This document shows, one piece after another, positions 41,238-46,294 of a stretch of DNA of 58,416 nt (the stretch's first letter is position 1; each line of letters opens with the position of its first letter). A program made the translations under genes and the position numbers. This DNA is from an uncultured Halorubrum sp. (GTDB lineage: Archaea > Halobacteriota > Halobacteria > Halobacteriales > Haloferacaceae). The stretch is from the NCBI RefSeq assembly GCF_937146585.1, contig NZ_CAKZRO010000142.1, positions 1 to 58,416 on the forward strand, given 5' to 3'. The notes beneath the pieces were generated by a model. The model was not told where the DNA came from, did not search any database, and saw only the letters and a list, made by a program, of their open reading frames with translations.

Positions 41238-43424
41238 TCAGTACCCCGCCAGCGTCTCGTCGCGGGCGTCGGCGAGATGTCGTCTGATGTCCGCCTCGCG
41301 CCAGCCGACGGGGGACAGCACGCTCTCGACGGCCCGCACGGCGGCGTCCTCGTACCACTCGGCGTCGTATCGGTCGCCGTCCTCGAACGCCAGTCGGACG
41401 CGGGCCGCGCCGCGCGCGTCCGCGTCGACGACCACGTAGCGGACCGTCTGCCCCGGCGCGATCTCGGTCCCTTCGATCCGCGCCCGCTCCAGCGCGGCCG
41501 CGGTGAGCGTCTCCATCGTGTAGTCGCCGACGGCCTTCGACACGCGGGTGTCGACGACGAGGTCGGCGGGGTCGACCTCGCCCCCGCGGAGGTCGCGGAG
41601 CCGGCGGCGGAGGGCGTCGCAGACCGCCTCCGGCGACCGCGTCTCGTCGAACGCGCGGAGCGCGGCCCGCTGGACCGCCTCGACCCACGCCGCGGTCGAG
41701 CGCTGGCGGCCCTCGATCCCCCGGGTCTTGATCGCATCGCCGAGGCCGGTCTCCGGGTACTCCTCTCCGCGTCGCTTTCCGAAGTATCGGGTCAACGCTC
41801 CCGATCCGGAGTCCCGGGTCGGACAGAACGCCGTCCAGTCGAACGCGCACTCGTACTCCAGTTCGACGCCGGTCTCGCGACTGATCTCGTCGGCCACCGC
41901 CGGGAGCGGCCGCTGCGCGCGACCCTCGGCCGGCGTCACCCAGAGGGAGTCGACGATCCCGTGGAGGACGCGCCAGCCGGCGTCTTCCAGGGCGGCCTTC
42001 GCGTCGAGCAGGAGCTCGCGGGCGAACGCGTTGATCGCCTCGTGGCACTCGATGCGGCCGAACTTCGCGTTGCTGAACCCCTGGTAGCCGAAACAGGAGA
42101 CGAGGATCCACTTGATCGCCGACGAGGCGGCCTCGAGGCGCTCGCGCTCGTCGCCGTCGGCGTCGGCGAGGGCCGCCTTGATCTCGCTCCGCGCGTCGAT
42201 GAGCGGGCCGAGCACGTCGGGCAGGTAGCCGTCGCGGTCGCAGATCGAGTAGCCGAGCCCCGGGACGTCGTCGGTGTCGCAGCAGCCGCACCGCACCGTC
42301 TCGGGCGAGACGTTCCGCGTCCGGATGACGTTCGGGTACAGCGACGCGAAGTCGAGCTCGTGGACGTCCTCGTGGACGCCCACGTCGGGGGCGAGCGTCG
42401 TCCCGCCGCGGTCCGCGTCGTCGAGCGTCGAGGCGGGCTTGAACAGCTCCGGCCGCCACGCCCGCCAGGGGACGCGCACGTCGCGGCGGCGCGCCTCGCG
42501 TATCTGGATCGCGGTCAGCACGCGCCCGATGGAGGCCCAGCCGAGCTCCTGGAGCGGCAGCCCGGAGCGCGAGACGAGGTCGAGACACCCCGCCAACCCC
42601 GACTCGCGGTGGAAGAAGGAGTTCGACTCGTCGACGAGGACGCGGCCGGGCACCGCGTACCGCGCCGGCGAGTGGCCCACCCGCCCGTAGGAGGTGTACG
42701 TCGACTCGCCGGCGAGCTTCGTATATCCCGGTCGCCGGCCGAGTTCGAAGTCGACCCCGGCGGCGTCGGCCGCCTCGAACAGCAGCGGAACGAGGTCGGC
42801 GGTCGAGACGACCAGCACGTCGGGGTCGCGGTCGTCGAGGACCGCTCGGACGCCCGCGACGACCTCGCCCGGCGACGAGCCGACGGGGTCGCCGTCCACG
42901 GAGAGCCGCGGCAGCGACTCGACGCCCGACGCGTGGCGGGGGAGCGTCAGGCGCATCGCCCGGAGGTCGCGGACCGACCGGTCGGGGCCGGCAGGCACGG
43001 CCGCGTCGAGGCAGTAGCGCAGCTCCCGCGTCAGGTCGACGTCGTAGCAGGTGTACGCGCTGGGGCGGTCGAACCGCCGCACGCGCCTCGCGATTGTCCG
43101 GACGGCGTCGATCGACGCCGCGTCGACGCGCAGGAGCGGACGGGCCGCCGTGCGGAACGTCTGCCGGTGCGACTCGACGCCGAGGTCGGCGACCGCCGCC
43201 TGCCCGTCGAGGAACGACCGGAGGGAACACAGCGCGTCAGAGAGCCCGTCGCGGGCGGGCGGCGTCGGGTCGGGGCCGCCCGCGCGGCCGTAGAGGTCGT
43301 CGACCGGGTCGCCGACGAACAGCGTCGGTCGGTACCCCTCGCGCACGTCGCGCTCGACGCCGTCCGGCGCGAGCCGCCACTCGGCGACGCGCCCGTCGCC
43401 GAGGTGGTCGACCGTGAGGACCAC
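41238..43424 (-). CDS. polB2: family B DNA polymerase, PolB2-like, altered motif C
   Basis: A 728-residue B-family DNA polymerase. Motif A is LDFASLYPNVI (358-368, first Asp358), motif B is KWILVSCFGYQG (Lys438; the usual Asn is Val) and motif C is HGIVDSLWV (488-496). The first Asp of the classic DTD is Ile490, but the second, Asp492, equivalent to the catalytic one, is kept. CRCC-like cysteines lie at 379, 381, 382 and 395. The N-terminal half does not show the DxE, NxxxD or YxxxD exonuclease motifs. The GTG start at 43424 is two bases after the upstream stop. Third gene of the cassette; likely translesion-type. Confidence 0.82.
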   Translation of the reverse strand: MVLTVDHLGDGRVAEWRLAPDGVERDVREGYRPTLFVGDPVDDLYGRAGGPDPTPPARDGLSDALCSLRSFLDGQAAVADLGVESHRQTFRTAARPLLRVDAASIDAVRTIARRVRRFDRPSAYTCYDVDLTRELRYCLDAAVPAGPDRSVRDLRAMRLTLPRHASGVESLPRLSVDGDPVGSSPGEVVAGVRAVLDDRDPDVLVVSTADLVPLLFEAADAAGVDFELGRRPGYTKLAGESTYTSYGRVGHSPARYAVPGRVLVDESNSFFHRESGLAGCLDLVSRSGLPLQELGWASIGRVLTAIQIREARRRDVRVPWRAWRPELFKPASTLDDADRGGTTLAPDVGVHEDVHELDFASLYPNVIRTRNVSPETVRCGCCDTDDVPGLGYSICDRDGYLPDVLGPLIDARSEIKAALADADGDERERLEAASSAIKWILVSCFGYQGFSNAKFGRIECHEAINAFARELLLDAKAALEDAGWRVLHGIVDSLWVTPAEGRAQRPLPAVADEISRETGVELEYECAFDWTAFCPTRDSGSGALTRYFGKRRGEEYPETGLGDAIKTRGIEGRQRSTAAWVEAVQRAALRAFDETRSPEAVCDALRRRLRDLRGGEVDPADLVVDTRVSKAVGDYTMETLTAAALERARIEGTEIAPGQTVRYVVVDADARGAARVRLAFEDGDRYDAEWYEDAAVRAVESVLSPVGWREADIRRHLADARDETLAGY

Positions 43425-43426
43425 GG

Positions 43427-43684
43427 CTACGCGTCGGCGAGCCGGTCGAGCCGCGACTCGAGCTCGGCGATGCGGCGCTCCTGTTCGAGCGCGATCGACA
43501 GCCACACGGCCGCCAGCGGGTCGGCGTGGTTGTGGTTGCCCGCGGCGTCCGCGCGGTCGCGGGCGTAGCCGAACAGCCGGTCGAACCGGCGCTGGTCCGC
43601 GCGGCGCAGCGCGCGGCGGAACGATCCCCAGTCGTCCTCGACCGCCGCCAGTCGGTCGCGGTACGTCGGGTTCGTCCGCCCCAT
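43427..43684 (-). CDS. small helical protein between RecA-like and polymerase genes
   Basis: An 85-residue soluble, mostly helical and charged protein (MGRTNPTYRDRLAAVEDDWG, later a region rich in Arg, ending with a coiled-coil-like helix LEQERRIAELESRLDRL). I recognise no family. It starts one base into the stop of the RecA-like gene (TGATG) and ends two bases before the polymerase start, so all three are translated from one message. The tight packing suggests a subunit or adaptor that links the two larger proteins. Confidence 0.75.
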   Translation of the reverse strand: MGRTNPTYRDRLAAVEDDWGSFRRALRRADQRRFDRLFGYARDRADAAGNHNHADPLAAVWLSIALEQERRIAELESRLDRLADA

Positions 43685-44382
43685 CAGCGGACCCCCGGCG
43701 CGGCCGTCTCGCGGTCCGGAGTCGCCGCGCCGTGGAGCCGGGCGCGGTGCGCGAGCACCTCGCGCCAGTACGCGAGCGTCGTCTGGAGCCAGCCGTCCGC
43801 CCCGCGGTAGACGAGCGTCTCCGTCTCGCCCGCGGCGTCCGCGAAGCGCGGGCCGAACGACGTCGCCCGGCACGTGAGGTGCGCCTCGGCGGCGCGGCGG
43901 AGCGGGCGCGAGAACTCGTCCGCCTCGCGGCGCGTCACGAGGACGGGCGCGTCGTGGACGCGGGCGACCCGCGCGACCGACGCGACCGCGCGGACGAACA
44001 TGTCTCCGGCCAGTTCGCGGTCGACGTCGGCGGCGCGGTAGCGCGCGTCGAGGCCGGTCGCGAGGACGACCGACGGCGAGTCGCGGGCCGCGAGCCGCCC
44101 CGCAAGGCGGTCGAGGAGCGCCGTGTGCTGGTGCGCGGTGAACCCGCGGGCCACCTCGACGCGGTCGAGCACGCGGTCGGCCGGCGCGAGTTCGCGGAGG
44201 CGCGTCGTGTTCGCGCGGTTCGCGCCGTCGACCCAGAACGCCGGGCCGTCGCTCCCGAGCACGCGGTCGAGCAGCAGCGCCTGGACGGGCGTGACGCCGA
44301 GGTCGTCGTCGACGTCGACGAGCGTGACCCCCGGCGAGAGCTCCGGGAGGTCGGCGGGCGGTCGGTCGGAACGAGTGGACAT
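43684..44382 (-). CDS. RecA/RadA-like protein without Walker A motif
   Basis: A 232-residue protein whose fold pattern follows RecA/RadA/RadB. Where Walker A should be it reads VDGANRANTTRLRELAP (51-67), lacking GxxxxGKT. The RadA-like ARGFTAHQHTALL is at 78-90, and a Walker B-like strand VVLATGLDARYR at 105-116. It may bind DNA or another protein without ATP hydrolysis. First gene of the polymerase cassette. A TATA-like box (minus-strand TTTTAC, 44404-44409) is about 26 bases before the ATG, so the start is well supported. Confidence 0.72.
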   Translation of the reverse strand: MSTRSDRPPADLPELSPGVTLVDVDDDLGVTPVQALLLDRVLGSDGPAFWVDGANRANTTRLRELAPADRVLDRVEVARGFTAHQHTALLDRLAGRLAARDSPSVVLATGLDARYRAADVDRELAGDMFVRAVASVARVARVHDAPVLVTRREADEFSRPLRRAAEAHLTCRATSFGPRFADAAGETETLVYRGADGWLQTTLAYWREVLAHRARLHGAATPDRETAAPGVR

Positions 44383-44502
44383 GGTAGGGACGACAGGGAG
44401 ATTGGTAAAATGGGTGAGCCATAGGTGGGCGGTGAAAGTGGAAGTGGCGCGTGGCGGGTGGGTCGTCACGGCAAGTCCAGAGACGATCGACGTGCCGACG
44501 AG

Positions 44503-44552: not shown

Positions 44553-44803
44553 ATGGACAGCGAGCGTGTCGACTCGGAGAGCGCGGTCTCGTGGAACCAA
44601 GCGAACATTCCCGCCCACATTCGCCGGGAGCTGGAGATCGATGACGGGACACGCTCCGGTGGCAGATCGAGGACGACGGCACGGTTCGCGTCCGGATCGT
44701 TCAACAGCGCAGCGGGACGTTCGCTGACTTCGCCGGGTACGACGGCGGCCGAGAGACGGACGTCGAGACCGAGCACGACGCCTGGGGCGCCGACCCCGAG
44801 TAG
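44553..44803 (+). pseudogene. AbrB-family antitoxin gene, frameshifted
   Basis: The first 32 codons encode an AbrB/SpoVT-type start (SAVSWNQANIPAHIRRELEIDDG). From about 44647 the frame is lost; adding one base at the GGGAC there restores DTLRWQIEDDGTVRVRIV and FADFAGYDGGRETDVETEHD up to a TAG at 44801-44803. In this repaired frame it is an 83-residue haloarchaeal AbrB-type DNA-binding antitoxin. The next gene, a PIN toxin, starts at the following base. A sequencing error is possible, but the partner is also broken. Confidence 0.7.
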
Positions 44804-45240
44804 ATGCCTCGGGCGCTGGTCGACACGACCGTGCTCTTCGCGGCGGCTACCGTCGGGACGGCGCGCATGGCGACGCGCTCCCGATCCTCAGGGGGATCGA
44901 CGCCGGAGAGCTCCCGGAGGCGGTAATCGTAGACTACGTGCCCGCGGAGACGCTCGACGGCCTGACGACGCACGTGGGCCACGACGCCGCCGTCGACTTC
45001 CTCGACCGGGTGGAGGAAAACGCGCGGCTCCACGCCGAGTCGCTGACGGCGGACGCGTTCGCGACCGCGAAGGGCCTCTTCCGGCGACACGAGGGGTTCT
45101 CGCTCGTCGACGCGTGTCTCGTCGCGTACATGCGGGCCGAGGGGATCGATTACCTGTACGCGTTCGACGGCGGCTTCGACGCCGCCGACGGAATCTCGCG
45201 CCTCGACGTCGAGCCGAACCGAACGCTCGCCGAATGCGAC
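44804..45240 (+). pseudogene. PIN-domain toxin gene (VapC-like), frameshifted
   Basis: It begins MPRALVDTTVLFAAA (first PIN Asp7) at 44804 and shifts frame near 44848; in the other frame it continues YRRDGAHGDALPILRGIDAG, DYVPAETLDGLTTHVGHDAA, FSLVDACLVAYMRAEGIDYL and YAFDGGFDAADGISRLD. These fit the acidic sites of a PIN RNase. The repaired frame has no stop at the expected end (about 45230) and runs on into dhaK, so the 3' end is also damaged. Paired with the broken antitoxin, this is a dead toxin-antitoxin locus. Confidence 0.68.
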
Positions 45241-45295
45241 GTGTTCGCAGGCCCCACTACGCTTAACCGGTCTGGGCGAGTCATTTCGATCGATC

Positions 45296-46294
45296 ATGAA
45301 GAAACTGATCAACGACCCGGACGACGTCGTCGACGAGATGCTCGACGGGATGACCGCGACGTATCCCGACCGCCTGCGACGCCTGCCGGACACGCAGGTG
45401 GTCGTCCGCGACGACGGGCCGGTCGACGACAAGGTGGGAATCGTCACCGGCGGGGGCAGCGGCCACGAGCCGACGCACGCGGGGTACATCGGCGATGGGA
45501 TGCTCGACGGCGCGGCCGCGGGCGACGTGTTCTCCTCGCCGACCGCCGACGAGTTCGAGGCGCTGATCGGCGCCTGCGACGCCGGCGACGGCGTCCTCGC
45601 GGTGATCAAGAACTACGAGGGCGACGTGATGAACTTCGAGACCGCCATCGAGCTCGCGGAGATGGAGGGCGCCGAGGTCGAGAGCGTCGTCGTGGACGAC
45701 GACGTGGCGGTCGAGGACTCGCTGTACACCTCCGGCCGCCGCGGCGTCTGCGGGACGATCCTCGTCCACAAGGTCGCGGGCGCGAAGGCCGCGCAGGGCG
45801 CCGACCTCGGCGAGGTCAAGCGCGTCGCCGAGAAGGTGGTCGACAACGTCGGCACGATGGGCACCGCGCTCACCTCCTGTGTCACCCCGGAGAAGGGCGA
45901 GCCGACCTTCGACCTGAGCGACGACGAGATCGAACTCGGCATCGGGATCCACGGCGAGCCGGGCACGGAGCGCACGGAGACGATGCCCGCCGACGAGATC
46001 ACCGAGCACCTGACCGAGGCGGTCCTCGACGACCTCGACCTCGACGAGGGCCAAGAGGTGCTCACGATCGTCAACGGCATGGGCGCGACGCCGCAGATGG
46101 AGCTGTTCGTCGTGAACCGCCGGCTACAAGAGCTGCTCGGCGAGCACGGCTTGGAGACGTACGACGCGTGGGTCGGCGACTACATGACCTCGCTGGACAT
46201 GGCCGGCGCGTCGATCACGGTCTGCGCGGTCGACGACGAGCTGAAGGAGCTGTTCGACGCGCCGGCCGACACCCCGGCGCTGACGACGAAATGA
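45296..46294 (+). CDS. dhaK: dihydroxyacetone kinase subunit DhaK
   Basis: Binds dihydroxyacetone covalently and hands it to DhaL for phosphorylation. The 332-residue sequence has TGGGSGHEPTHAGYIGDGML (51-70) and the hemiaminal-forming His219 in GIGIHGEPG. Size matches bacterial DhaK. A TATA-like CTTAACC lies about 30 bases upstream, so it probably starts a leaderless dhaKLM transcript. Its stop overlaps the dhaL start by four bases. The enzyme feeds glycerol- or DHA-derived carbon into glycolysis as DHAP. Confidence 0.93.
   Translation: MKKLINDPDDVVDEMLDGMTATYPDRLRRLPDTQVVVRDDGPVDDKVGIVTGGGSGHEPTHAGYIGDGMLDGAAAGDVFSSPTADEFEALIGACDAGDGVLAVIKNYEGDVMNFETAIELAEMEGAEVESVVVDDDVAVEDSLYTSGRRGVCGTILVHKVAGAKAAQGADLGEVKRVAEKVVDNVGTMGTALTSCVTPEKGEPTFDLSDDEIELGIGIHGEPGTERTETMPADEITEHLTEAVLDDLDLDEGQEVLTIVNGMGATPQMELFVVNRRLQELLGEHGLETYDAWVGDYMTSLDMAGASITVCAVDDELKELFDAPADTPALTTK

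Follow-up and report, generated by a model that had tools for sequence, protein, structure and literature searches.

How does a haloarchaeon switch on a gene cluster that ties a DNA polymerase to an inactive relative of RadA, and what would such a cluster do? We asked this of the iRadA-PPB2-PolB2 operon on a contig of an uncultured Halorubrum sp. (NZ_CAKZRO010000142.1, assembly GCF_937146585.1). The window analyzed is this entire contig of 58,416 nucleotides. A first-pass annotation made from the sequence had read the three genes as a possible archaeal mutasome. In the best explanation, which we regard as very probable, the operon encodes a damage-induced PolB2 translesion mutasome that is co-regulated with radA and RPA. 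The protein machine is already known; what is new, and open to test, is how it is regulated.

The operon was described in 2014, together with additional haloarchaeal copies and neighboring Orc genes (Makarova, Krupovic, Koonin; PMC4104785). The name PolB2 mutasome comes from Timinskas (2025), who modelled PolB2, iRadA and three PPB2 subunits as a heteropentamer and drew a comparison with Pol V (PMC11791011). Judged by its sequence, the locus has the defining features of this family. The iRadA-PPB2-PolB2 order, the MGRT arm, the xxD state of motif C, the D(K/R) motif, the decayed exonuclease domain and the RadA fold devoid of ATPase motifs all agree with the published description, and no difference at the protein level was found. 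The mutasome reading was partly supported: it was right in substance, but had been anticipated in both publications. We add two promoter elements, found by computation: class 1, which the operon has in common with radA and RPA, and class 2, which other haloarchaeal operons have in common with orc/cdc6.

Conservation of the operon

The present analysis shows which genes the operon contains and in what order, the states of their motifs, their conservation and co-occurrence, and the promoter element with its genome-wide specificity. The three genes lie on the minus strand (Table 1). The stop codon of iRadA and the start codon of PPB2 share one base (TGATG), and two bases separate PPB2 from PolB2; the coordinates, lengths and spacing given in the first-pass annotation are exact to the base. 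The nearest relatives of the locus come from Halorubrum.

The arrangement is widely maintained. Among 79 PolB2 loci taken from named haloarchaeal genomes, 67 contain all three genes in the same order, and contig ends truncate three of the others. In a second, independently drawn set of 116 genomes from the haloarchaeal class, both partners occur on the same strand and in the same order at 94 of the 100 near-full-length PolB2 copies. All three genes are present in 76 of these genomes, while fewer than three are found in only two. Since 67 of 79 loci and 94 of 100 copies keep the order, the arrangement is far beyond chance. The first-pass annotation had proposed such a survey and would have counted rare co-occurrence against its own reading; the survey found the genes to be regular neighbors.

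A promoter element in common with radA and RPA

An 11-bp motif, TTCCACTTTCA, precedes iRadA upstream of a TATA-like element, whose position, judging from the spacing, fits a leaderless haloarchaeal mRNA. The motif differs by a single mismatch (T to C) from TTTCACTTTCA, which is carried by genes of Halobacterium induced by ultraviolet-B (UV-B) radiation, radA1 above all, about 50-60 bp before the start (PMC2556686). The degenerate form TTYCACTTTCA occurs only four times in the genome: before radA (61 bp), RPA (95 bp; gene identified by NF005553, E-value 5e-145), a small conserved protein (59 bp) and the present operon (61 bp). The radA promoter of this genome has TTTCACTTTCA itself at 61 bp, and motif and spacing are alike at iRadA. 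Since the promoter shares its element with the main DNA-repair genes radA and RPA, damage is predicted to switch the operon on. The class-1 element is the new part of this system: no link between promoter motifs and PolB2 was found in the open-access literature, and the 2025 study makes no mention of the word "promoter" and reports neither element (PMC11791011).

Table 1. Coordinates of the operon genes and promoter elements in the window
Feature	Position	Strand	Details
iRadA	44382-43684	minus	232 amino acids; ATG start
PPB2	43684-43427	minus	85 amino acids; begins MGRTNPTYR
PolB2	43424-41238	minus	728 amino acids; GTG start
Class-1 element TTCCACTTTCA	44433..44443	minus	begins 61 bp before the iRadA ATG
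TATA-like element ATTTTACC	44404..44411	minus	22-29 bp before the iRadA ATG, downstream of TTCCACTTTCA; read from sequence

The genes with TTTCACTTTCA named in Halobacterium are radA1, top6B, vng17 and vng280 (PMC2556686). The two sets have radA in common and place the motif at a similar distance from the start; the PolB2 operon and RPA are not among the motif genes listed there. Some of the seven Halobacterium motif sites are left unnamed in that study, and polB2 could be one of them.

Alternatively, the mutasome might be an ordinary one, and its element might be common to promoters in general or be inherited background, with no role as a damage signal. In favor of this, sequences inside one genus share ancestry, and by chance the reversed pattern turns up 0-5 times per genome. 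Motif counts exceed this control only about two-fold per genome, so that single class-1 matches elsewhere are not reliable; what counts for the argument is where the motif lies and before which genes. Several points speak against a background origin. All four copies in this genome precede conserved genes, two of which are radA and RPA. Across 21 class-1 operons the motif block retains an identity of 0.83, compared with about 0.25 over 90 bp upstream. The motif was also found independently before the UV-B-induced genes of Halobacterium (PMC2556686), and class-1 sites are present in other families as well (loci L280, L281, L283 and L284). We therefore consider a background origin of the element unlikely.

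In a scan of the genus, 100 exact matches to the motif were read. About 21 of them precede radA, with the ATG at 61 bp, about 20 a protein of 58 residues, 11 an ilvA-like leader, 9 iRadA and 5 RPA; one match each lies before an XPB-like helicase and a TnpB-type transposase. The conserved 58-residue protein (MSAVTADRPRYATPTRVDVT...; loci L084, L126, L159, L164, L190, L216 and L217) has no Pfam or NCBIfam match. In most of the Halorubrum genomes read, the UV motif stands about 59-65 bp before its gene, as regularly as before radA, which makes the protein a candidate in the damage response. The motif lies farther away, at about 150-250 bp, from the ilvA-like genes, with a conserved leader (GCACGTCACACGCGTGCATTCCCCC) in between (L118, L145, L151, L157, L162, L180, L186, L193, L201, L212 and L213). 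The XPB-like helicase (L154) contains a damage recognition domain and has the motif 85 bp before its start; the transposase match is at L191. A near match to the motif is also found at npa, a UV-B-induced putative transposase of Halobacterium.

The polymerase and its activity

PolB2 scores 939 bits against the NCBIfam model NF004418 (cut-off 692), and a profile of 31 PolB2 relatives retrieves archaeal B-family polymerases from the PDB (E-value 8e-71). The first-pass annotation had called it a B-family polymerase lacking visible exonuclease motifs, and alignment to Deep Vent polymerase agrees: the motifs are lost, with ExoI FDIE reading LTLP. In the PDB alignment the catalytic Asp of ExoII is not conserved and the ExoIII region is not alignable. 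The AlphaFold2 model of the protein has a predicted local distance difference test (pLDDT) score of 84.

The polymerase motifs are retained in part. Motif A reads ELDFASLYP and keeps D358; motif C reads HGIVDSLW and keeps D492, the second Asp of DxD, while the first is replaced by Ile490. Both retained Asp residues are invariant in the alignment of 31 sequences, and the replacement by Ile is found in every PolB2 relative seen. The D(K/R) motif is kept as ADRGG (D338-R339, DRGG at 338-341); D338 and R339 are invariant in the same alignment, and the motif is present in 79 of 80 sequences. DRGG was equated with DK253-254 of Sulfolobus islandicus from its position before motif A, not from direct alignment to the S. 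islandicus protein.

Could PolB2 be catalytically dead? In the view of 2008-2014, proposed in PMC4104785, the complex would have a regulatory or structural role at stalled forks or origins, possibly tied to Orc/Cdc6 and replication initiation. The replacement of the first DxD Asp in all relatives seen is in line with this, as are the loss of the exonuclease motifs and the orc/cdc6 genes found near many PolB2 copies. The enzyme of Sulfolobus argues otherwise. Purified Dpo2 has the same motif C state (HxxxD) and is as active as the replicase; it lacks exonuclease activity and extends mismatched and lesion-paired primers (Feng 2022; PMC8764526). The state of D358 and D492 in the Halorubrum protein is that of this active enzyme. 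Because both metal-binding Asp residues are invariant, we think a dead polymerase unlikely.

In the damage-induced mutasome that we favor, PolB2 would be the catalytic subunit, extending primers opposite or just past lesions without proofreading. iRadA would act as a RadA-fold scaffold that has lost ATP binding, and PPB2 as a small helical partner, its MGRT arm possibly docked between the two, as the family model has it. A single promoter, in which the UV-B motif of haloarchaea precedes the start by 61 bp, is predicted to serve the operon; DNA damage would turn it on together with radA and RPA, giving lesion tolerance at the cost of mutations. Damage induction, extender activity, targeted mutagenesis that needs PolB2 and the modelled complex are known from other archaea; in Sulfolobus, damage induces PolB2/Dpo2, and targeted mutagenesis depends on it alone (Feng 2020; PMC7390963). 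For the present operon we infer both damage induction and mutagenicity.

Several points weigh against this explanation. Halobacterium UV arrays do not name polB, and polB2 of Haloferax volcanii can be deleted and is thus dispensable (an unpublished statement in PMC7776575). A simple pattern search (Q..[LIMV]..[FYW]) found no clamp (PCNA)-binding motif in the last 60 residues of PolB2 or iRadA; such a motif at the C-terminus of either protein is present in only a fraction of PolB2 mutasomes (PMC11791011).

The partner proteins

A profile of 31 iRadA relatives matches RadA (E-value 6e-12), and the AlphaFold2 model (pLDDT 84) matches the ATPase domains of RadA and DMC1 (Foldseek E-value 5e-12). 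The protein begins at the ATPase core and has no N-terminal helical domain. The absence of Walker A (GK[ST]) from this RecA/RadA-like protein, already remarked upon in the first-pass annotation, is accompanied by that of the Walker B Asp, as aligning the protein with RadA shows.

PPB2 has no Pfam or NCBIfam match. Members of its family are helical proteins of about 85-90 amino acids with a conserved N-terminal MGRT arm including Arg3 and Arg9 (PMC11791011), and the start of the Halorubrum protein, MGRTNPTYR, fits this motif with both arginines. Positions M1, G2, R3, T7 and R9 are conserved in 31 relatives, and the start [MVL]GR[TS] is found in 68 of 72. PolB2 copies of Haladaptatus (L019, L021, L026 and L065) are accompanied by a PPB2-like gene without the MGRT arm and by no recognizable iRadA.

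The comparison with bacterial imuA-imuB-dnaE2 cassettes, drawn in the first-pass annotation, holds as an analogy, an inactive RecA-family protein, an accessory protein and an error-prone polymerase in one operon following the same logic, but is refuted as homology: the polymerase belongs to the B family and not the C family, iRadA is closest to RadA/Rad51, PPB2 shows no similarity to Y-family polymerases such as ImuB by Pfam and NCBIfam, and the operon contains no second polymerase gene. The closest parallel in the literature is Pol V (UmuD'2C-RecA) of Escherichia coli (PMC11791011). By analogy, the operon would work like both bacterial systems, linking a polymerase with a RecA-family protein and a small subunit so that lesions are bypassed mutagenically. 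The bacterial systems differ in the polymerase, which is of the Y or C family, and Pol V employs an active RecA; the systems are not homologous.

A second element in other haloarchaea

In most other haloarchaeal PolB2 operons the place of the class-1 element is taken by a second one, TTNCGGAA...CGGAARCGACACGCC...CTTAT; the iRadA promoters outside class 1 have nTTnCnGnAnnnnCGGAAnCGACACGCCnnnGCTTATnnG in common. A class-2 matrix built from 24 distinct sites gave 69 matches in the 79 loci: 39 before iRadA, 11 before orc/cdc6, 10 before PolB2, 5 before PPB2 and 4 unassigned. The matches before iRadA partly include training sites, whereas those before orc/cdc6 and PolB2 do not. The ten PolB2 matches belong to split operons or to PolB2 genes standing apart. 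Neither 20 column-shuffled matrices nor the reversed matrix produced any match in the 79 loci.

The pattern CGGAARCGACACGCCNNNGCTTATC with up to three mismatches was found 69 times in the 116 genomes, compared with 3 times for its reverse. With up to two mismatches, 44 of 46 occurrences stand immediately before a match to iRadA or PolB2, as judged by comparing coordinates by eye, some of these gene matches being fragments. The strict pattern with a fixed 5-base gap recovers only 6 sites, since the spacing is variable and the sequence itself has drifted; the matrix and the three-mismatch pattern were effective. Among 40 further iRadA upstream regions, chosen for lacking the strict pattern, 26 were assigned to class 2 (a few of them weakly), 7 to class 1 and 7 to neither, several of the last showing GGAA variants. 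Haloarchaeal PolB2 operons seem to be connected to either of two elements of a damage response; for class 2 we infer the response to damage from the genes downstream of the element.

Possible regulation by Orc/Cdc6

Since the adjacent orc/cdc6 gene carries the same class-2 element, the Orc/Cdc6 paralogue adjoining class-2 operons is the obvious candidate regulator. In Sulfolobus, the induction of Dpo2 needs Orc1-2, which binds ANTTTC in the promoter of its own gene; the motif also sits in the promoters of several damage-response genes (PMC9738581). TTTCACTTTC includes ACTTTC. The elements also resemble halves of the origin recognition box of Halobacteriaceae, TT[TC]CACC[GCT]GAAAC[GA][AC] (PMC4164010), one in its TTYCAC repeats and the other in CNGAAACGA. 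Both elements could be Orc/Cdc6 half-sites, though such short matches prove little. Haloarchaeal mutasomes probably belong to damage regulons, and, as in Sulfolobus, an Orc/Cdc6 paralogue would provide part of the link.

At the Halorubrum locus a link to orc is rejected: the window contains no orc/cdc6 gene, and orc lies within 6 kb at only 2 of the 20 other class-1 loci. Here the operon departs from that of S. islandicus, where Dpo2, of the same polymerase family, is a damage-induced extender under Orc1-2 (PMC7390963, PMC8764526, PMC9738581).

We tentatively envisage a haloarchaeal SOS-like programme in which an Orc/Cdc6 paralogue may take the place of LexA, its element standing before its own gene, before iRadA-PPB2-PolB2, before split-off PolB2 genes and sometimes before a stand-alone exonuclease; in Halorubrum and some other lineages, including the genome of the window, the operon would have been rewired to the UV element of radA and RPA. 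No LexA-type system described for haloarchaea was found in the open-access literature searched. If the paralogue reads the second element, the Orc1-2 damage response of Sulfolobus would extend to Euryarchaeota. The two elements offer a concrete and cheap way, in tractable hosts, to test how such machines are turned on. They also list genes that are likely co-regulated: radA, RPA, the XPB-like helicase and the 58-residue protein for class 1, and orc/cdc6 for class 2.

Additional genes in and around the operons

Extra genes recur within PolB2 operons (L009, L014, L016, L041, L046, L057, L058, L063, L066 and L068), mostly between PPB2 and PolB2, and in L063 between iRadA and PPB2. At L041, L046, L057, L058, L066 and L068 PolB2 carries its own copy of the class-2 element. 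Two of the inserted genes (L046:2321-3034 and L066:2320-3033, both between PPB2 and PolB2) encode a stand-alone RNase H-like 3'-5' exonuclease. Such a gene follows the class-2 element in two further genomes (L052:2268-3020, minus strand, with a weak score, and L220). The ExoI and ExoII motifs of the stand-alone exonucleases near PolB2 operons look intact, and the enzyme is a possible candidate for a trans-acting proofreader of the exonuclease-dead PolB2.

The assembly that holds the locus is fragmented (173 contigs, 92% complete). A replicative PolB seemed absent from the genome, but the exonuclease part of a PolB was found, cut off near a contig end (G000:C107:266-940). This domain most likely belongs to the replicative PolB3, whose polymerase portion was not recovered from the contigs; the apparent absence is probably an assembly gap.

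Upstream of the operon, at positions 44553-45300 of the window, an AbrB-like frame divergent from iRadA shows an apparent frame shift near 44640 and is followed by a PIN-domain frame (Pfam PIN). The two frames are probably a broken toxin-antitoxin pair or the product of a sequencing error.

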